A DNA stretch of 64,000 nt, from contig OX639991.1 in NCBI GenBank assembly GCA_951828585.1, positions 2,140,576 through 2,204,575 on the forward strand, read 5' to 3'. Origin of the DNA: Longimicrobiales bacterium (lineage in GTDB: Bacteria; Gemmatimonadota; Gemmatimonadetes; Longimicrobiales; Gaopeijiaceae). Both the position numbers and the translations under genes were made by a program. Positions within the stretch are counted from its first letter, which is position 1; every line of letters begins with the position of its first letter. This document shows positions 6,091-34,580 of this stretch, piece after piece. The notes under the pieces are model-generated. The model saw only the letters and a program-made list of their open reading frames with translations. It was not told where the DNA came from and ran no database searches.

Positions 6091-7179
6091 ATGGTCGACG
6101 AGATGAGCCGCAGGTCATGCAACGAGAGTCCGACGAAACACTTCGTCCACAAGCTGATCGATTGGGAGCGGGTCAACGAGCGGCTTGGGCGCTATCCGGC
6201 AATTCGAGAAGCGTTCTCGATGGAGGTACTCCGCGCGGCTGAGGAGAGCCGGCCGTACTACTGCCACTACATGGCGTGGCGGCTGGGGACTTGGAGCGTG
6301 GAGAGTGAGGGATGCCTTGCCAATCTAGACAATCTGCTCGCCAATGCTGCGGAACTCCCGAACTGGGAGAACGAGGATTCGGTGCTCAAGAACGGGGAGT
6401 ACGCCACCTATTGGTCGCTCCTCTGGCAGTTGCAGCTGGCTGCGAAGCTACGGGCGGTCGGGCGGAACGTGACGTGGGCCGGACCGGATGGCGGGCCTGA
6501 TCTCTCCGTCGACGTGGACGGGGAACGATGGCATGTGGAGTGCCATGTTCCTCGGAAGTCGTATTTCCTGTTGCAGTTTCTCCAGGAGTGTCTCTCGAAG
6601 ATCCTTGGCCTGAGCGTTCAGGAAGACTATCCGCTTTTCGCGCGGATGCCCTTGCCCGAGCCCAGCCGGTTCTTGGACGACAAGCTCAAACCGTACTGCG
6701 ATGCATCTCGCCGCGAGGCAGCGAGTGCGAAGTGCGTTACTATCGTGTACGAGGACCAGTGCTCGGTCGAGGTGGCCGAGGAGGAGTGGGACACGAACGA
6801 GTCAGACGACACGGTTGACGGAAGGAGGCGTCCGCTGGGGCGGTGGGGCGCTCCGGAACAGCACGTCACCGCGATGCTCAAGGGAGCGGTTTCCAGCAAG
6901 GGGGAGAGCAACAGCCTCGGCGACCATCATCCGAATGTTCTCGCGGTGAATCTGCTGCTGACCAACGCCGAAGCCGCCGAGTACCATGATAGCGACGGCA
7001 AAATGATCGCTGGATGTGCGCCCGAGCTCCCGACCGCTCTTGACGTGTTGGCAGTTGCCAATTGCGGCATTGACGCGAGCGTACCCAACCTCAGGATTGC
7101 CGCGTGTGGCTCGCCGAATTGGTGTCGTGAGGGACGATGGCTGGAGGCGGAGCCTGACGACGGGCTTGAGACACGGTGA
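6091..7179 (+). CDS. Hypothetical protein with possible PD-(D/E)xK nuclease-like core
   Basis: This 362-residue soluble protein has no signal peptide. Around residues 125-150 the sequence WAGPDGGPDLSVDVDGERWHVECHVPRK matches the spacing of a restriction-endonuclease-like fold (PD, then a strand ending in E-x-K), although the final lysine position is occupied by His (ECH) and a Lys follows four residues later. The preceding helix (LLWQLQLAAKLRAVGRN) also fits that fold. The rest is unrecognised. It stands alone between the mobile-element region and the conserved core. The nuclease-like assignment is inference from one motif. Confidence 0.5.
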   Translation: MVDEMSRRSCNESPTKHFVHKLIDWERVNERLGRYPAIREAFSMEVLRAAEESRPYYCHYMAWRLGTWSVESEGCLANLDNLLANAAELPNWENEDSVLKNGEYATYWSLLWQLQLAAKLRAVGRNVTWAGPDGGPDLSVDVDGERWHVECHVPRKSYFLLQFLQECLSKILGLSVQEDYPLFARMPLPEPSRFLDDKLKPYCDASRREAASAKCVTIVYEDQCSVEVAEEEWDTNESDDTVDGRRRPLGRWGAPEQHVTAMLKGAVSSKGESNSLGDHHPNVLAVNLLLTNAEAAEYHDSDGKMIAGCAPELPTALDVLAVANCGIDASVPNLRIAACGSPNWCREGRWLEAEPDDGLETR

Positions 7180-7326
7180 CGATGCCCGGGATTCCCGCCA
7201 ATCGCTTCAGTGTTTCCGGCTATCCTGACACGATGGATTCGCGTCTGGTCAATTGGCAAGAATGGCAGATCGTGCAGTCCGGGTTGAACTTACGTGTTTT
7301 CTTGCCGTGATTTTCGCCACCTGCAA

Positions 7327-7382
7327 CTTGCCAGCCCGGCGCCTCACAGCTCTCGGTGCTCGCGCGGCCTTGTCCACGGACT
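7327..7382 (-). repeat. Dispersed 56-bp intergenic repeat, copy 1
   Basis: This unit is identical over 56 bases to 7501-7556, and about 46 of 50 bases match an inverted copy at the right end of the window (63932-63983). It contains the palindrome-like GGCGCC near one end. The two copies here lie 118 bases apart in the gene-less 7180-7629 interval, with the palindrome GAATAGC-CCT-GCTATTC (7470-7486) between them. It resembles REP-type dispersed elements; I do not recognise a named family. Confidence 0.7.
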
Positions 7383-7469
7383 GCTGTCAGCCCGCGGACA
7401 AGATCCCCGCGGCATTCGAGCTGTGATGCATCCGGGCCGGAGCGCTTCGCTCTGCGTTGCTCCTCGGGC

Positions 7470-27204: not shown

Positions 27205-27361
27205 GTGCCCTTGAGCAGCTCTTATTGGGACTCGCTCCTGAGTGGCCACCGGGAAATCTGATTGACGGTCGTGACCATTCACACCATAGTGGTTTCCACA
27301 TAGCCGTGGCGTCCCGCGTTACGGCGGGGTTACTCACTCTCAGGACGAGAGGAAACCTGAC
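27205..27361 (+). promoter_or_regulatory. Repeated leader element, copy A
   Basis: About 150 bases directly upstream of ATG 27362 recur almost unchanged at 33229-33402 and in diverged form at 29485-29754. The 3' part starts with GGTTTCC (27291-27297) and ends with GGAAACC (27351-27357), a perfect 7-bp inverted repeat enclosing about 53 bases with a CCCGC/GCGGG hairpin. GGAAACC lies just before the ATG and overlaps the AGAGGA Shine-Dalgarno-like sequence, so pairing would hide the ribosome-binding site. This looks like a structured 5' leader. I recognise no known riboswitch. Confidence 0.6.
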
Positions 27362-28456
27362 ATGCGATGTCGCCGCCTCAGCCGCCGCCGTGGCCGGGGA
27401 TGGAACTCGGCGAGCCCCTTCGCGTTCTTGGCCTTGACGTCCTTGGCGTGGCCGCCGCTCACCCCCCCCATCGCCGCCCAGGAGCCCGATTCGGTGGAGG
27501 TGACCGTTGCGGTGCGCGATGCCGGGACCACCGAGGCCTTGGCCGGGGTGGTGATCGAGCTGTCGGGCCTGCGGGAGCGGCATGTCACGGGCGATGACGG
27601 GACGGTGACCTTCGACGTGCCGGCCGGGCGGTACCGGCTCACCGTTCGGAAGAGCGGCTACGCAACCATCGAAAGAACCATCGAAGACGACCTTCCGGTT
27701 GCGCGGGCGATCAGGACCATCGTCATGATGCGCAGGCCGGTCGAACATGAACTGAGCGCTCCCGCGTCGCTGTTGGTGCAGGTAACGGAATTCGGATCGG
27801 AGCGCCCGATCGAGGCGGCGGAGGTTTCGCTTGTCAACGGGTCCGCGCGGCAGCTCACCAACGCGCGGGGGATGGCCAGGTTCGGTGATCTGCGGCGGTC
27901 GCCGGTGGAGGTCTCGGTCCGGGGAATCGGCTACGCCACGCGCACGGAGCCGGTCCTCCTGGAGGCGGGGCGCACGACACTGGCGAAGGTCGCGATGACG
28001 GTGGAGGCCGTGGCCCTGGCACCCCTGGAGGTGGTGGCTCGCTCACGGTTCCTGGAAAAGAAGGGAGTGTACTGGCGGATCGATCACGACAGGGTGACGC
28101 ATCTGTTCGACTCGGACGATCTCATCGAACGCATGCGCGAGCGCGGCTCGCCGCTCCTGAGTCATGCGTTTACGAGGTTGCCCGGCCTCTATGTGGGGTA
28201 TTATGGGGGCGCGCCGTTCTTTTTGGGGAGCAGAAGGTGTGAAATCCCGTGGTACTGGGACGGGATCATGTTTGGGTCCCCGGAAGGGGGTTTCGACGAG
28301 ATTACGCCGGAGGCCGTTTTACTGGTCGAGGTCTACACGGGCCCGCGCACGCCCAGGCGCTTCCAGCGCTGGCCGGGGGATCTCAACGATTGCGGTGCCA
28401 TCCTCTTCTGGTCCAAGAACCGTGGCAATCGGACCGGGAAGGGCGGGGAGGGGTAG
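27362..28456 (+). CDS. Secreted protein with two carboxypeptidase-regulatory-like domains, copy A (in frame)
   Basis: This 364-residue protein has an arginine-rich start (MRCRRLSRRRGRG), a hydrophobic segment and likely cleavage after IAAQ. Two CarboxypepD_reg-type beta-sandwich domains follow (residues about 45-120, VTVAVRDAGTTEALAGVVIE, and 130-215, LLVQVTEFGSERPIEAAEV), then a region of about 150 residues that resembles a TonB-receptor plug start (LEVVARSRFLEKKG, GAILFWSKN). A run of eight C (27462-27469) lies in the signal-peptide codons and keeps this copy in frame. Copies at 31566 and 33403 are close paralogues. A role in surface binding or receptor assembly is inferred. Confidence 0.75.
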   Translation: MRCRRLSRRRGRGWNSASPFAFLALTSLAWPPLTPPIAAQEPDSVEVTVAVRDAGTTEALAGVVIELSGLRERHVTGDDGTVTFDVPAGRYRLTVRKSGYATIERTIEDDLPVARAIRTIVMMRRPVEHELSAPASLLVQVTEFGSERPIEAAEVSLVNGSARQLTNARGMARFGDLRRSPVEVSVRGIGYATRTEPVLLEAGRTTLAKVAMTVEAVALAPLEVVARSRFLEKKGVYWRIDHDRVTHLFDSDDLIERMRERGSPLLSHAFTRLPGLYVGYYGGAPFFLGSRRCEIPWYWDGIMFGSPEGGFDEITPEAVLLVEVYTGPRTPRRFQRWPGDLNDCGAILFWSKNRGNRTGKGGEG

Positions 28457-28551
28457 GAGCACCTGCCTGTCACGACCGTCCAACGGACCGCCGGATCAAC
28501 GTTCCACGAGGACCGCGGCCGAGATCGCCACCGAGGTCGCTTGGCTCCCGC

Positions 28552-28597
28552 TTGGTTCGGGTACCTCACGATGTTATGCTGTGTAACCGTAACACAG
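28552..28597 (+). promoter_or_regulatory. vapBC promoter with operator palindrome
   Basis: TTGGTT (28552-28557) and TATGCT (28575-28580) are spaced by 17 bases like a sigma-70 promoter. CTGTGT (28579-28584) and ACACAG (28592-28597) form an inverted repeat overlapping the end of the -10. This is the expected layout for autorepression by the downstream ribbon-helix-helix antitoxin. Confidence 0.5.
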
Positions 28598-28616
28598 AAA
28601 CTGCGAGACTGCATCA

Positions 28617-28946
28617 ATGCGAAACATCACCGTAGCCGTTGACGAGGAAACCCATCGCCTCGCCCGTATCCGCGCGGCGGAGCTGGACACGTCGGTGTCG
28701 GCGCTGGTACGTGAGTTTCTGCGGCGTATCGCACCCCGCGACGGGCAACGCGAGCGACCGGATCCTCAACCCCTCGAGTCCGCGCTAGAGCGCAGACGCA
28801 GGCTGTTCGACGAGGTCTTCGCCGACTTCGACGCGCGCGGCATTGGGCTGCGCATGGCAGACAACCTGCCGCGAGCGGAGCTCCACGACCGTTCGGCGAT
28901 CCGGTCCGAAGAGGATCCGGCCGGTCGCGCCGACATCGGCGGCTGA
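28617..28946 (+). CDS. vapB: VapB-type ribbon-helix-helix antitoxin
   Basis: The 109-residue protein starts MRNITVAVDEETHRLARIRAAELDTSVSALVREFLRRI, a typical Arc/CopG ribbon-helix-helix DNA-binding domain, then a charged C-terminal tail of about 60 residues that would bind the toxin. It is eight bases upstream of a PIN-domain gene. It should neutralise that toxin and repress the promoter at 28552-28597. No copy of this gene remains in the second, deleted vapC locus at 32.7 kb. Confidence 0.82.
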   Translation: MRNITVAVDEETHRLARIRAAELDTSVSALVREFLRRIAPRDGQRERPDPQPLESALERRRRLFDEVFADFDARGIGLRMADNLPRAELHDRSAIRSEEDPAGRADIGG

Positions 28947-28954
28947 TCGGCCAG

Positions 28955-29368
28955 GTGCGCTTCGTCGACACGAATGTGCTGCTCTACGCGGCGAGCATTC
29001 TCCCCGAAGAAGAGGCCAAGCGTCGTCGCGCGCGGGAACTCCTGGCGGAGCCGAATCTCGCCGTCTCGGTGCAGGTTCTGCAGGAGTTCTACCACCAGGC
29101 GACCCGCGCCACCCGACCCGGTCGACTCTCCGACGATGACGCCGCGCGCTTCCTCGATCCGGTGTGGGAGATGCGGGTGCAGGCCGTAACGCTCACCGTG
29201 TTCCGGGATGCCGTTGCGATTCGCCGCCGCTTCGGTCTTTCGTATTGGGATGCGGCAATCCTCGCCGCCGCCCGGACGCTCGGCTGCGACGCCGTCTACT
29301 CCGAGGACATTAGCGCGGAGCAGGACTACGGAGGGATTCGAGTCGTCAACCCCTTTGAATTGAATTGA
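28955..29368 (+). CDS. vapC: VapC-type PIN-domain ribonuclease toxin
   Basis: This 137-residue PIN-domain protein contains the acidic active-site residues in MRFVDTNVLLYA (Asp5), the glutamate of VLQEFYHQA, LSYWDAAILAAA (Asp near 104) and AVYSEDISAEQDYGGI (Asp near 121). VapC toxins cut tRNA or rRNA when freed from VapB. The start is GTG at 28955. A second, 5'-truncated copy at 32752-33098 is over 90% identical in DNA by eye. Confidence 0.88.
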   Translation: MRFVDTNVLLYAASILPEEEAKRRRARELLAEPNLAVSVQVLQEFYHQATRATRPGRLSDDDAARFLDPVWEMRVQAVTLTVFRDAVAIRRRFGLSYWDAAILAAARTLGCDAVYSEDISAEQDYGGIRVVNPFELN

Positions 29369-29484
29369 GTTGAGCACTCACTTGCCCCATAAGGCTGCCG
29401 ACCTGAAGCGGAATGCATTGGAGCCGTGAAGAAGCCGGCCACGTCCCGGAACGACAACCTGCCGGCCTCGGTTCCGTCGCGGGG

Positions 29485-29754
29485 GTGCCCTTGAGAGCGC
29501 TCTGTTGGGACTCGCTCCTGAGGGGCCACCGGGAAAACCGGGTGGGGAACAGGATGCCCAGTGTTTGCCGTACATGCAGTTAGGCCAAGCGAAAAGCTGC
29601 GCCGGTCCGGGGTTGCCAGGCGACTTCATCCATACGTCTCTTGACAGAAACTCCTTGCCGGTCGTGACCATGAGGACCATGATGGTTTCCACATAGCCGT
29701 GGCACCCCGTGTCACGGCGTGGTTACCCACCCTCAAGACGAGAGGAAACCTGAG
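29485..29754 (+). promoter_or_regulatory. Repeated leader element, copy B (diverged)
   Basis: The first part (29485-29520) and the 3' part (29684-29754) match leaders A and C, with about 100 unrelated bases between. GGTTTCC (29684-29690) and GGAAACC (29744-29750) are conserved, while the enclosed bases differ at several positions (for example CCCCGTG and CACGGCG). The palindrome AGAGCGCTCT lies near 29492-29501. It stands directly before ATG 29755. The gap from vapC (29369) holds no other gene. Confidence 0.55.
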
Positions 29755-30392
29755 ATGCGATTCCCCCCCCGAGACTGAACAAGCTGGCGACCGTGATCGG
29801 TGGCACTGCCATGCTGGCCTTGATCGTCGCGCTCCCCCTGTTGGCCGTGGCAGGGGCCTCTGAGCGGACGACCGTTGAGTCCGCCGCCGGCACCTTTCAT
29901 CTCGCGGATGCGTCGCAGGCCGTCGGTCTGGACGATGCCTCACGTCCCGCTCCGGCTGCGGCGGAGGCAGAAGACTGGGCGATGTCGCTGGATCTAAGCT
30001 CGTTGCAGTGGCCCTGTCATGACTGCCGCGAGTGCGAAACACCCGAAGGCTATTGGGGTCATGAGCTCATCGATCGGGATTGGCCATTGCATCCGCGACT
30101 CGGGTGGCACTTGAACGATTGCTGGCCCAACGTATGTCAACTCCATCCATGGTGTCCGCCGGACGCAATGGCCGAGGGACCAAACCAGGAAAACCAGGAC
30201 GCGTGGGAAACGGTTGAGGCCATAAGGAATGCCACGCCTGCGGAACTGAAGGCGCTTGTGGCCAAGTACCCGGAAGCGTTACGGATCAATGGTGACCGAC
30301 AAGCTCTGCAGATCATCGGATGCGCGGGAGAGTCCGTCGTTGCCAGTTACGGTGTCACGTCCGTTCCATCGTTGCGGTCGTTGCTCCAATAG
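29755..30392 (+). CDS. Secreted cysteine-rich protein, out of frame at a C8 tract
   Basis: From ATG 29755 the sequence reads MRFPPRD and stops, because of a run of eight C (29763-29770). One extra C would give MRFPPPRLNKLATVIGGTAM and a full signal peptide ending VAGA, followed by about 180 residues. The mature part has a cysteine cluster (WPCHDCREC, NDCWPNVCQLHPWCPP) that suggests disulfides or metal binding. Without the extra C, a GTG at 29793 is the only internal start in frame. No family recognised. The out-of-frame state is either phase-OFF, recent decay or a homopolymer sequencing error. Confidence 0.5.
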
Positions 30393-30444
30393 CGTGCTTT
30401 GCCCCGACGCGGGCCGTTCGCTGCTTGACGGGAGTCGTGTTGCA

Positions 30445-31569
30445 ATGACTGTTGCGCCCCCCACCCTGTACGGTGCCTTGGTCGCCGTTGTATTGGTTGC
30501 CTTGGCCGCAGCGACCGGGTCGGTGGCGCAGGAGCCGTCGCCCGCGACGATGGTCGTCGAGCCCTGCACCGGACCCTGCGATCTGACATTCGTTCTTGAA
30601 CGCGAGTACGGCGAGGATGTGGGCCCGGGGATGCTTGAGGACAGCGGAGCCAGGGGGTGGTTGGACAAGTCCGGGCGCATGTATATCCTCGGAAATCTCG
30701 GTACGAGTGTTCAGGTCTTCGGACCGGACGGGGCGTTCCTGATGCGTGCGGGCCGCCGGGGTTCAGGTCCCGGCGAACTGGAGGATGGTGGCTCACTCGT
30801 CATCACCGAGGATGGAGTGTTCTCGGTTCTGGACCGCACCCGGCAGGTGATCCTGACCTTCGACACGACTGGGGCTCTCCGGAGCGAATCCCGGATTCGC
30901 GGATGGGCTGCCCGGGGACTGGAGACGGTCCACGCGGGAGGAGTTCTGGCGGTGCATCACGCGGACATCCGCACGCCCGCTCTGGTCGGATACCCGCTCC
31001 ATCTGGTGAATCTCGAAAGCGGCGAGGTTGTGGAATCGTTCGGGTCGATGACGGGCGAATACGACTCACGGTCCGGGTTACACCACACCATCGCGGGCGG
31101 ACCTGGACGGTCGGTGTGGATGGCGGAAAGGTACGCGTACAGGATTGAGCTGTGGGAACCCGGTCGACTCCTAAGGTCGCTCCGGCGGGACACGAAGTGG
31201 TTCCCCGAAGTGCCGGTGGCTGAACTTTCCCGTGGATGGGAGGAGAAGCCAAGCACAATGATCAACAGCATTGCGGCCGGTGATTCCCTGCTCTGGTTGA
31301 CCATCCTCACGGCCGACGAACGTTGGCGCGAAGGCAGGGAACACCGCTATGACACGACGCTGGAGGTCATCGACTTCCGCCGCGGTCGGCTCGTCGGCAG
31401 CGAGCGCCTGGGCGACATACATCGCCTGGTTGAGGCGGGACTTTTGGGTCGGCTGGTCGTCACGCCGGAACGTGCCGTGCGATATCGGACCACACGCGTA
31501 CTGCTTGGAGGGGAGGTGTCGGGGCCGGAGGCCGCCGCGGCGGGAGGCCCGACCTCCTTGGGAAGGTGA
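30445..31569 (+). CDS. Secreted 6-bladed beta-propeller protein
   Basis: This 374-residue protein has a signal peptide (LVALAAATGSVAQ) and repeated NHL/6-bladed-propeller motifs: GRMYILGNLGTSVQVFGPDG, RRGSGPGELEDGGS, and later GRSVWMAERYAYRIELWEP. It starts at ATG 30445, 52 bases after the cysteine-rich gene, and its stop overlaps the GTG of the next carboxypeptidase-regulatory gene (GTGA). A truncated relative lies at 45396-45868. Such propellers in this phylum are usually extracellular and of unknown ligand. Confidence 0.75.
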   Translation: MTVAPPTLYGALVAVVLVALAAATGSVAQEPSPATMVVEPCTGPCDLTFVLEREYGEDVGPGMLEDSGARGWLDKSGRMYILGNLGTSVQVFGPDGAFLMRAGRRGSGPGELEDGGSLVITEDGVFSVLDRTRQVILTFDTTGALRSESRIRGWAARGLETVHAGGVLAVHHADIRTPALVGYPLHLVNLESGEVVESFGSMTGEYDSRSGLHHTIAGGPGRSVWMAERYAYRIELWEPGRLLRSLRRDTKWFPEVPVAELSRGWEEKPSTMINSIAAGDSLLWLTILTADERWREGREHRYDTTLEVIDFRRGRLVGSERLGDIHRLVEAGLLGRLVVTPERAVRYRTTRVLLGGEVSGPEAAAAGGPTSLGR

Positions 31570-32663
31570 GTCGCCGCTTCGACCACCTCGGCCGCCGCCG
31601 TGGCCGGGGATGGAACTCGGCGGGCCCCTTCGCTCTCCTGGCCCTGACGTACCTGGCGTGGCCGCCGCTCACCCCCACCGTCGCGGCCCAGGAGCCCGAT
31701 TCGGTGGCGGTGACCGTGACGGTGCGCGATGCCGGGACCACCGAGGCCTTGGCCGGGGTGGTGATCGAGCTGTCGGGCCTGCGGGAGCGGCATGTCACGG
31801 GCGATGACGGGACGGCGACTTTCGATGTGCCGGCCGGGCGGTACCGGCTCACCGTTCGGAAGAGCGGCTACGCAACCATCGAAAGAACCATCGAAGACGA
31901 CCTTCCGGTTGCGCGGGCGATCAGGACCATCGTCATGATGCGCAGGCCGGCCGAATCCAACCTGGATGCTCCCGCGTCGCTGTTGGTGCAGGTAACGGAA
32001 TTCGGATCGGAGCGCCCGATCGCGGCAGCGGAGGTTTCGCTTGTCGGCGGGTCCGCGCGGCAGCTCACCAACGCGCGGGGGATGGCCAGGTTCGGTGATC
32101 TGCGCCGGTCGCCGGTGGAGGTCGCGGTCCAGAGGATCGGCTACGCCACGCGCACGGAGCCGGTCCTCCTGGAGGCGGGGCGCACGACACTGGCGAAGGT
32201 CGCGATGACGGTGGAGGCCGTGGCCCTGGCACCCCTGGAGGTGGTGGCTCGCTCACGGTTCCTGGAAAAGAAGGGAGTGTACTGGCGGATCGATCACGAC
32301 AGGGTGACGCATCTGTTCGACTCGGACGATCTTGTCGAACGCATGCGCGAGCGCGACTCCCCGCTATTGGGCCATGCGTTCACGAGGTTGCCCGGCCTTT
32401 ACGTGTGGTACTTCGGGGGGCCTATGTTCGTGGGGCGCGGAATGTGTGAAATCCCGGTGTACTGGGACGGAATCATGCATGGGAACCCGTATGGGCATTT
32501 CGACGACATTCCGCCGGAGGCCGTTGAACTGGTCGAGGTCTACACGGGCCCCCGCACGCCGAAGCGCTTCCAGCGCTGGCCGGGGGATCTCAACGATTGC
32601 GGCGCGATCCTCTTCTGGTCCAAGAATCGTGCCAATCGGACCAGGAAGGGCGGGGAGGGGTAG
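31566..32663 (+). CDS. Secreted carboxypeptidase-regulatory-like protein, copy A' (no long C tract)
   Basis: A 365-residue paralogue of the 27362 gene, near-identical over the two beta-sandwich domains and most divergent at the N-terminus and in the last third (for example LYVWYFGGPMF). The C run in the signal peptide is interrupted here (five C only), so this copy cannot shift frame easily. The GTG start at 31566 overlaps the stop of the propeller gene. This placement differs from copies A and C, which sit directly behind a leader. Confidence 0.75.
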   Translation: MSRRFDHLGRRRGRGWNSAGPFALLALTYLAWPPLTPTVAAQEPDSVAVTVTVRDAGTTEALAGVVIELSGLRERHVTGDDGTATFDVPAGRYRLTVRKSGYATIERTIEDDLPVARAIRTIVMMRRPAESNLDAPASLLVQVTEFGSERPIAAAEVSLVGGSARQLTNARGMARFGDLRRSPVEVAVQRIGYATRTEPVLLEAGRTTLAKVAMTVEAVALAPLEVVARSRFLEKKGVYWRIDHDRVTHLFDSDDLVERMRERDSPLLGHAFTRLPGLYVWYFGGPMFVGRGMCEIPVYWDGIMHGNPYGHFDDIPPEAVELVEVYTGPRTPKRFQRWPGDLNDCGAILFWSKNRANRTRKGGEG

Positions 32664-32751
32664 GAGCACTGGGGTAGGAGCACTTGCCTGTCACGACCGT
32701 CCAACGGACTGTCGGTCGACGTTCCACGAGAACCGCGGCCGAGATCGCCAC

Positions 32752-33098
32752 CGGGTCGCGCGCGGGAACTCCTGGCGGAGCCGGATCTCGCCGTCTCGGT
32801 GCAGGTTCTGCAGGAGTTCTACCACCAGGCGACCCGCGCCACCCGACCCGGTCGACTCTCCGACGATGACGCCGTGCTCTTCCTCGATCCGGTGTTGGAG
32901 ATGCGGGTGCAGGCCGTAACGCTCACCGTGTTCCGGGATGCCGTTGCGATTCGCCGCCGCTTCGGTCTTTCGTATTGGGATGCGGCAATCCTCGCCGCCG
33001 CCCGGACGCTCGGCTGCGACGCCGTCTACTCCGAGGACATGAGCGCGGAGCAGGACTACGGAGGGATTCGAGTCGTCAACCCCTTTGAATTGAATTGA
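32752..33098 (+). pseudogene. 5'-truncated vapC copy
   Basis: This stretch encodes the C-terminal 110 or so residues of the vapC at 28955 (SVQVLQEFYHQATRATRP to the end NPFELN) with few changes. The vapB gene and the first 26 codons of vapC have been deleted; the junction joins GAGATCGCCACCG, upstream of vapB, to the GTCGCGCGCGGGAAC of vapC. The active-site start (FVDTN) is lost, so it should be inactive. Confidence 0.75.
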
Positions 33099-33228
33099 GT
33101 AATATTGCATCATGTGCAGCGTGGAGGAGGTCCGTGGGACCGTCCGGCTTGCCGCGCCGGGGGTGAGGCGTGAGTCCATCGCCGCAACCGCGCCGCCGCC
33201 AGCTGTCGGCCTCGATTCCGTCGCGGGG

Positions 33229-33402
33229 GTGCTCTTGAGAGCGCTCTGTTGGGACTCGCTCCTGGTTGGGACTCGCTCCTGAGTGGCCACTGGGAAATCT
33301 GATTGACGGTCGTGACCATTCACACCATAGTGGTTTCCACATAGCCGTGGCGTCCCGCGTTACGGCGGGGTTACTCACTCTCAGGACGAGAGGAAACCTG
33401 AC
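33229..33402 (+). promoter_or_regulatory. Repeated leader element, copy C
   Basis: Nearly identical to leader A from about 33282 to 33402, including GGTTTCC (33332-33338) and GGAAACC (33392-33398). It contains a 17-bp tandem duplication of GTTGGGACTCGCTCCTG (33248-33264 and 33265-33281) absent from the other copies. The palindrome AGAGCGCTCT is kept at its 5' end. The interval 33099-33228 upstream holds no recognisable gene. Confidence 0.6.
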
Positions 33403-34580
33403 ATGCGATGTCGCCGCCTCAGCCGCCGCCGTGGCCGGGGATGGAACTCGGCGAGCCCCTTCGCGTTCTTGGCCTTGACGTCCTTGGCGTGGCCGCCGCT
33501 CACCCCCCCATCGCCGCCCAGGAGCCCGATTCGGTGGAGGTGACCGTTGCGGTGCGCGATGCCGGGACCACCGAGGCCTTGGCCGGGGTGGTGATCGAGC
33601 TGTCGGGCCTGCGGGAGCGGCATGTCACGGGCGATGACGGGACGGCGACCTTCGACGTGCCGGCCGGGCGGTACCGGCTCACCGTTCGGAAGAGCGGCTA
33701 CGCAACCATCGAAAGAACCATCGAAGACGACCTTCCGGTTGCGCGGGCGATCAGGACCATCGTCATGATGCGCAGGCCGGCCGAATCCGACCTGGATGCT
33801 CCCGCGTCGCTGTTGGTGCAGGTAACGGAATTCGCATCGGGGCACCCAATCGAGGCGGCGGAAGTCTCGCTCGTCGGCGAGTCCGAGCGGCTACTCACCA
33901 ATACGCGGGGGATGGCTTGGTTCCGTGATGTACGCCGTTCTCTGGTGGAGGTCGCGGTCCAGAGGATCGGCTACGCCACGCGCACGGAGCCGGTCCTCCT
34001 GGAGGCGGAGCGGACGACATTGGCCAAGGTCGCGATGACGGTGGAGGCCGTGCCCCTGGCACCCCTGGAGGTGGAGGTTCGCTCACGCTTCCTGGAAAAG
34101 CAGGGAGTGTACTGGCGGATTGATCATGACCGGGTGATGCATGTGTTCGACACCGACGATCTTATCGAACGCATGCGCGGCTCCCCACTCCTGGCCCATG
34201 CGTTCACGAGGCTGCCCGGCCTTTTTGTGTGGTACGCAAGAGGAGCGCCGTACTTCCTAGGGCGCAGAAGGTGTGAGATCCCGGTGTACTGGGACGGAAT
34301 TAGGGGTCCTAACCCGTATGGGCATTTCGACGACATTCCGCCGGAGGCCGTTGCATTCGTCGAGGTCTACACGGGCGTCCGCACGCCCGCGCGTTTCCAG
34401 CGCTGGCCGGGGGATATCAATGATTGCGGGGCGATCGTCTTCTGGTCCAAGCGGCGCGCCGGTCGGGGTCCGAGGAACCGCGAGAGGGGTAGGCGGTTGA
34501 GCCTAGCAGATGGAGTTTCTATCCCACGTCAGAGCACTGGGAGCCGAGGGAGAAATCCCCCGCCATTCGAGCGGCGATGA
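33403..34580 (+). CDS. Secreted carboxypeptidase-regulatory-like protein, copy C (out of frame at C7)
   Basis: This third paralogue keeps the two beta-sandwich domains and the plug-like tail, but the C run in its signal-peptide codons has seven C (33503-33509), one fewer than copy A. From ATG 33403 translation therefore ends after about 46 codons. The long frame (from 33408) lacks a signal peptide. Adding one C restores the copy A structure. The C-terminus is about 30 residues longer than in copies A and A' because the stop is shifted. Divergence is highest in residues 140-300, including changes such as FVWYARGAPYFLG. Confidence 0.6.

Follow-up and report, generated by a model that had tools for sequence, protein, structure and literature searches.

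Candidate phase variation of small exported cysteine-rich proteins in a Longimicrobiales bacterium, beside a tract that probably arose by chance

We analysed runs of C at the starts of exported-protein genes in a 64,000-nucleotide (nt) stretch of a Longimicrobiales bacterium (the window; 67% G+C), which covers 2140576-2204575 of a genome assembled as a single contig of 4,472,315 bases. The window holds three related genes, copies A, B and C, and a gene for a small cysteine (Cys) protein, gene D. With about even confidence, we infer that replication slippage set the lengths of these tracts, that the tract of A and C is a product of chance and that the tract of D is inherited. D belongs to a type of gene that codes for small exported Cys-rich proteins and often has a beta-propeller gene behind it, and in this genome that type is probably phase-variable. 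Positions are those of the window unless another sequence is named, and the genes and tracts concerned are the following.

27225-27361, plus strand: leader of copy A (27225-27468 is 100% identical to 33266-33509, ungapped).
27362-28456, plus strand: copy A, in frame, coding for an exported protein with CarboxypepD_reg domains (PF13620, 69 bits, cut-off 32.3).
27462-27469, plus strand: C8 tract of copy A, in the final part of the signal peptide (direct reading and script).
29755-30392, plus strand: gene D, small exported Cys protein (from its frames and the family profile).
29763-29770, plus strand: C8 tract of gene D, at a site homologous to that of the C21 and C10 tracts described below.
30445-31569, plus strand: 6-bladed beta-propeller gene, downstream partner of D (PF17170, 23.1 bits, cut-off 22.9).
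31566-32663, plus strand: copy B, with an interrupted tract; its GTG start at 31566 overlaps the end of the propeller gene.
33266-33402, plus strand: leader of copy C (by identity to the leader of copy A).
33403-34580, plus strand: copy C, with a broken frame from ATG 33403 and a second start at ATG 33408.
33503-33509, plus strand: C7 tract of copy C (direct reading and script).

Gene D proved to be out of frame, as the preliminary description of this DNA had it. The frame from ATG 29755 stops after 7 codons, and a frame with signal-peptide-like and mature sequence is open 3' of the tract, with an in-frame GTG at 29793. Searches of Pfam and NCBIfam gave no match for D. A profile of 16 relatives gave 36 matches in 13 of the 23 genomes of the genus comparison set (the window's genome and 22 others), 10 of them in the window's genome, and five loci of the family were found in Gemmatimonadota metagenome-assembled genomes, e.g. 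RHO3_bin_73. A propeller motif lies downstream of 25 of the 35 non-redundant loci that were re-found, within 430 nt in 24 cases; one of the 10 loci without a propeller had only 45 nt available downstream. The propeller gene behind D itself gave an E of 2.9e-82 to the propeller profile, which had been built with this gene among its loci.

Two relatives of D carry longer runs at the same place. A paralogue (G000 3812802-3813485, minus strand; L081 7403-8086) has C21 (G000 3813454) from its fourth codon, in frame and before the signal peptide. This gene is flanked by two near-identical propeller open reading frames (ORFs), at 6353-7393 and 8865-9809 of L081. An orthologue in another species (G030, with the same sequence in RHO3_bin_73) has C10, out of frame. 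The sequence after the tract is homologous among the D, C21 and C10 genes, with 0 of 300 shuffles reaching the score in each of the three comparisons. The C21 and C10 genes also have a leader in common. A link of D to the C21 gene through the leader was tried and not found (66 of 300 shuffles reached the score); the link lies in the sequence after the run. D would then carry a short, out-of-frame version of a poly-C that is inherited in the first codons of a small exported Cys-protein gene and prone to slippage. Phase variation of gene D is plausible, and it appears more plausible for the longer runs outside the window than for D.

As a length criterion for a phase-variable poly-G/C tract we used at least 9 bases, the cut-off of a Neisseria phasome study (PMC5953494), and as a position criterion a site within the reading frame or at most 200 nt upstream of the start. 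One review places the border between mutable and hypermutable tracts at G8 (PMC4235727). The tracts of A, C and D all lie in such a position and have a long open frame past them, and their lengths of 8, 7 and 8 are below nine. In the C21 gene and in three further genes, with G15, G13 and G10, the run has at least 9 bases and lies in the frame or no more than 200 nt ahead of the ATG. The window's genome holds 12 runs of 11 or more, C21, G15 and G13 among them.

In the three further genes the run stands between two promoter-like hexamers upstream of a small exported Cys-rich gene. The G15 module (run at G000 1840095; L076 2486-2591) reads TTGACA-GAAC-G15-A-TAGACT, 80 nt before the ATG, and the G13 module (run at G000 1944423; L077 2412-2505) reads TTGCGA-GAATTC-G13-TACCTT, 68 nt before the ATG. 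The G10 module (run at L061 3636; L061 3624-3721) came from a random sample of the window's genome (400 kilobases (kb), 309 predicted genes) and reads TTGCGA-GAATCC-G10-TACCCT, 75 nt before the ATG. The modules of G13 and G10 hardly differ except in the length of the run. This arrangement of TTG hexamer, run and TANNNT was found 3 times among the 360 distinct runs of G7 or longer that were examined, and its mirror image 0 times. Downstream of the G15 and G10 genes there is a propeller hit, and at G13 the hit overlaps the gene itself. Some members of the small exported Cys-rich type would switch by poly-C in the first codons and others, if the hexamers function as promoters, by poly-G between the hexamers. 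The data show the sequences, the frames, the homologous tract site in the relatives of D and the promoter-like layout; slippage as the cause, live switching, promoter function and any benefit are inferred from them. A C13 run in L081, 292 nt before another small exported Cys-rich gene, was excluded, as it sits at the end of the preceding gene.

Under one fixed rule, a small exported Cys-rich ORF starts at 3 of 12 runs of 11 or more, 1 of 33 runs of 9-10, 3 of 43 runs of 8 (two of which seem spurious), 2 of 156 runs of 7 and 14 of 461 runs of 6. Runs of 11 or more differed from runs of 6-7 (16/617) with a Fisher P of 0.004, and runs of 9 or more (4/45) with a P of 0.04. Several results weigh against phase variation of this gene type. 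The rule was framed after the tracts had been seen. A sigma-70 scan, which covered only the G15 region of the three, found no promoter there. The Cys genes with a run at the promoter are like D in kind, and their homology to D was not demonstrated (a probability of 2.4% in a profile comparison; with hmmsearch, an E of 0.008 at best, for one of four). By eye, the G13 gene seems truncated beside its G10 relative. Poly-C directly after the ATG gave 25 matches in the 23 genus genomes and 26 in a reversed control, hence no excess. Only 3 of the 35 D-family loci have a run of 8 or more (2 of 10 in the window's genome) in the region from -330 to +60 of the match, a region that may not reach the true start of loci whose match begins late in the profile. 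The run of D itself does not exceed C8, and the C10 orthologue is decayed, with part of the gene lost, so that its run may merely persist.

Propellers alone were rejected as an enriched class because they are common, with 26 hits in the 400-kb sample. Three of these 26 have a small exported Cys-rich ORF upstream, and only one of them has a run of 7 or more nearby, namely G10. In the stretches around C9-C10 runs, 2 of 7 propellers have such an ORF upstream, neither with a run. For G13 the rule for propeller partners chose a different, earlier ORF; here the Cys ORF is itself overlapped by the propeller hit.

Other long runs were inspected by eye. The frame is kept across the run in the C21 gene and in L072, and frames differ across the run in L080 (position 2515, length 14, a lipoprotein-like gene), L075 (2476, length 14, propeller-like) and L073 (2545, length 12, another gene). 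The longest run, C22 (L078 2499-2520), comes right after the stop of a TatA-like gene. In two relatives (L095, L100) C10 and C13 stand in frame after the ATG of RuvX-like and NADP reductase-like genes, which shows that runs of this kind also occur outside exported-protein genes. In fragmented relatives (G002 contigs 9 and 18, and others) some long poly-C/G runs sit at contig starts, as breaks or read artefacts. Because several of the listed runs have this position, C12 counts in the relatives were not used.

A programme acting on small exported Cys-rich proteins, several of them paired with propellers, would combine first-codon poly-C with poly-G in promoter spacers, with D as an out-of-frame member and with A and C, whose leader is related to that of D, being drawn in; we put this forward tentatively, as somewhat short of an even chance. 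One alternative is that everything is chance and decay: homopolymers are common in a GC-rich genome, frameshifts have recently struck C and D and set them on a course to loss, and the long runs elsewhere are neutral. Runs of G or C are indeed frequent, with 13 of length 7, 6 of length 8 and none longer in the window, and 89, 14 and 8, respectively, in the 400-kb sample. For runs of 7 or more, the first 120 nt of the 309 sampled genes hold 14, or 0.378 per kb compared to 0.260 in gene bodies; for runs of 8 or more they hold 2, or 0.054 per kb compared to 0.057. Since A and C share one origin, we counted two independent tracts among about seven genes, for which P is about 0.04 (7 or more) and about 0.0009 (8 or more), both post hoc; the window's tracts are weakly beyond chance. 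The rarity of the run among D relatives, its lack in the homologues of A (below), the decayed C10 gene, the long runs at the TatA-like, RuvX-like and NADP reductase-like genes and the genus-wide count after the ATG all agree with chance and decay. However, this explanation does not account for the site common to the D, C21 and C10 genes, for near-identical G13 and G10 modules that yet differ in run length, or for the maintenance of a run as long as C21 in frame at a signal peptide. We regard chance and decay throughout as unlikely, while giving it real weight.

For copies A and C the comparison leads elsewhere. Copy A is in frame as first described, starting with ATG 27362 and stopping at 28456. 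Over 27225-27740 (516 nt) A and C differ only by two substitutions, at 27250 and 27606, and by one base of the tract, and they diverge far more past 27740, which points to a recently shared 5' part. Copy B had been described as having an interrupted tract, and this is confirmed; its C5-A-C2 and the C8 of A are one base apart in that stretch. After the tract, the ratio of non-synonymous to synonymous substitution rates (dN/dS) was 0.55 for A-B, 0.52 for A-C and 0.46 for B-C, from which it follows that copy C is not an old pseudogene. Copy C had been described as out of frame by one base. Its frame from ATG 33403 is broken and ends after 46 codons. The gene starts with ATGCGATG, and from a second ATG, at 33408, a frame of 390 codons leads into the mature protein, giving it a different N terminus. 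Copy C is therefore not simply off, and it may be translated from this second ATG.

We then compared the tract with homologues of A outside the window, using the region between -160 and +30 relative to the domain match in 20 stretches of sequence, some from the window's genome and some from relatives; a single partial hit was discarded, and weaker matches were left out. A run of 7 or more was found in 0 of 32 homologues (10 from the same genome, 22 from relatives), the longest being 6, and for these homologues the idea that the A family conserves the tract was rejected. We read the A/C run as probably a chance tract that slipped once, mutable rather than a dedicated switch. It would have arisen from C-rich signal-peptide codons, one base from the interrupted run of B, been copied between A and C, and then slipped by one base, after which the mature frame of C would be reached from the second ATG without the usual signal peptide.

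The preliminary description had proposed a phase-variable surface-protein locus in which all three window genes switch. The difference between A and C exactly at the tract, the two of three tracts that are out of frame and the long open frames were counted for phase variation, as were C21 and C10 at the homologous site in relatives of D and the longer coding or promoter-spacer runs at similar genes of this genome; the window's tracts lie in or before signal-peptide codons. The proposal is partly supported. The kind of mechanism holds and is plausible for D. A dedicated switch in A and C is improbable, the 32 homologues examined being without a run. The tracts are also short, 32 of the 35 D-family loci are without a run of 8 or more, C is possibly still translated, and MutL is present in all 23 genus genomes, the window's included. 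Dedicated phase variation of all three genes is accordingly improbable in our view.

Even less probable is a homopolymer error of the assembly, with C and D truly in frame. A and C do differ by a single homopolymer base, and another C7 (L059, position 18268), within an acyltransferase-like gene, also sits at an apparent frame break. Against such errors we tested whether the frame is kept across runs with clearly coding flanks on one strand, a test by which the window's three tracts are not judgeable. The frame was kept in 34 of 36 runs of length 7, 7 of 7 of length 8 and 3 of 5 of length 9-10. Of the four disagreements, by eye, three are gene ends and one, L059, is an apparent real break; one of the two exceptions to the 41 of 43 runs of 7-8 is thus a gene boundary. 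The flanks were unclear or changed strand in 66 and 38 of 140 runs of length 7, 21 and 11 of 39 of length 8, and 18 and 8 of 31 of length 9-10; for 11 or more the figures were 10 and 2 of 12, so that none was judged. Under a stricter test the frame was kept in 16 of 19 runs of length 7, in the single run of length 8 (together 17 of 20) and in 1 of 2 runs of 9 or more. Homopolymer error as a general cause, which had been named as an alternative at the outset, was rejected as unlikely by these tests, in which most runs remained unjudged. Transcriptional slippage or frameshifting at the run, giving two products from one DNA length, would fit the C8 runs and the start codons that open a second frame in C and D, but the lengths differ between homologues at the DNA level and we consider it very improbable.

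The remaining features lie between these genes.

28617-29368, plus strand: VapBC-like pair, an RHH-like gene (28617-28946) and a PIN-domain gene (28955-29368), assigned by domain scores.
32755-33098, plus strand: second, truncated PIN gene, a copy of the first (98% identical over 300 nt; PIN 33 bits).

In the VapBC-like pair the PIN domain scored 58.3 bits (cut-off 23.6) and the RHH domain 18.1 bits, below its cut-off of 27. Together with the truncated PIN copy, the pair marks a segmental duplication. The start region of A (27255-27377) and that of D (29648-29770) are 81% identical. Copies A, B and C each have two CarboxypepD_reg domains, the PF13620 scores of B (71.5 bits) and C (69.8 bits) lying above the cut-off as does that of A. 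The TonB-dependent receptor plug PF07715 reached 20.8 bits in B, below its cut-off of 23.9, and gave no match in A and C at an E of 0.01. A promoter scan of the leader of A found one match, TTGACG-17-CATAGT at 27262-27290, with no run inside. Structure models were weak, with a mean predicted local distance difference test (pLDDT) score of 62.3 for A and 48.8 for D.

Phase variation by slippage is known chiefly in host-associated pathogens. Among the papers that a literature search found to mention phase variation together with Gemmatimonadota or with sponge symbionts, none has a title on this subject. Should the long runs vary within the population, this uncultured lineage would possess a set of exported Cys proteins that it can switch. 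The example also illustrates how background runs, as in A and C, can be told from an inherited run, as in D and its paralogue. In Bacteroidota, small exported proteins of the NVEALA type adjoin beta-propellers. Gene D is similar as a small exported Cys protein that adjoins a 6-bladed propeller gene; the 16 aligned D-family members gave no Pfam match to such a family, and a literature search for NVEALA together with beta-propeller found nothing. As in pilC and nalP of Neisseria and the poly-G loci of Campylobacter jejuni, the frame of an exported protein in the window depends on poly-C at or before the signal-peptide codons; in pilC the poly-C lies inside the reading frame (PMC5953494). The window differs from these translational loci in its runs of 7-8, shorter than 9, in its phylum, and in that one genome per species was compared here. 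The closest match for A and C is the G7 tract of meningococcal siaD, which switches at a low rate and for which the authors invoke genome context and not selection (PMC5953494). A repeat between the -35 and -10 elements is a known mechanism of transcriptional phase variation (PMC4235727). Although the poly-G genes lie outside the window and their promoters are putative, with none found by the scan in one region, their poly-G between two promoter-like hexamers 68-80 nt before the ATG resembles the arrangement of the porA and fetA type.

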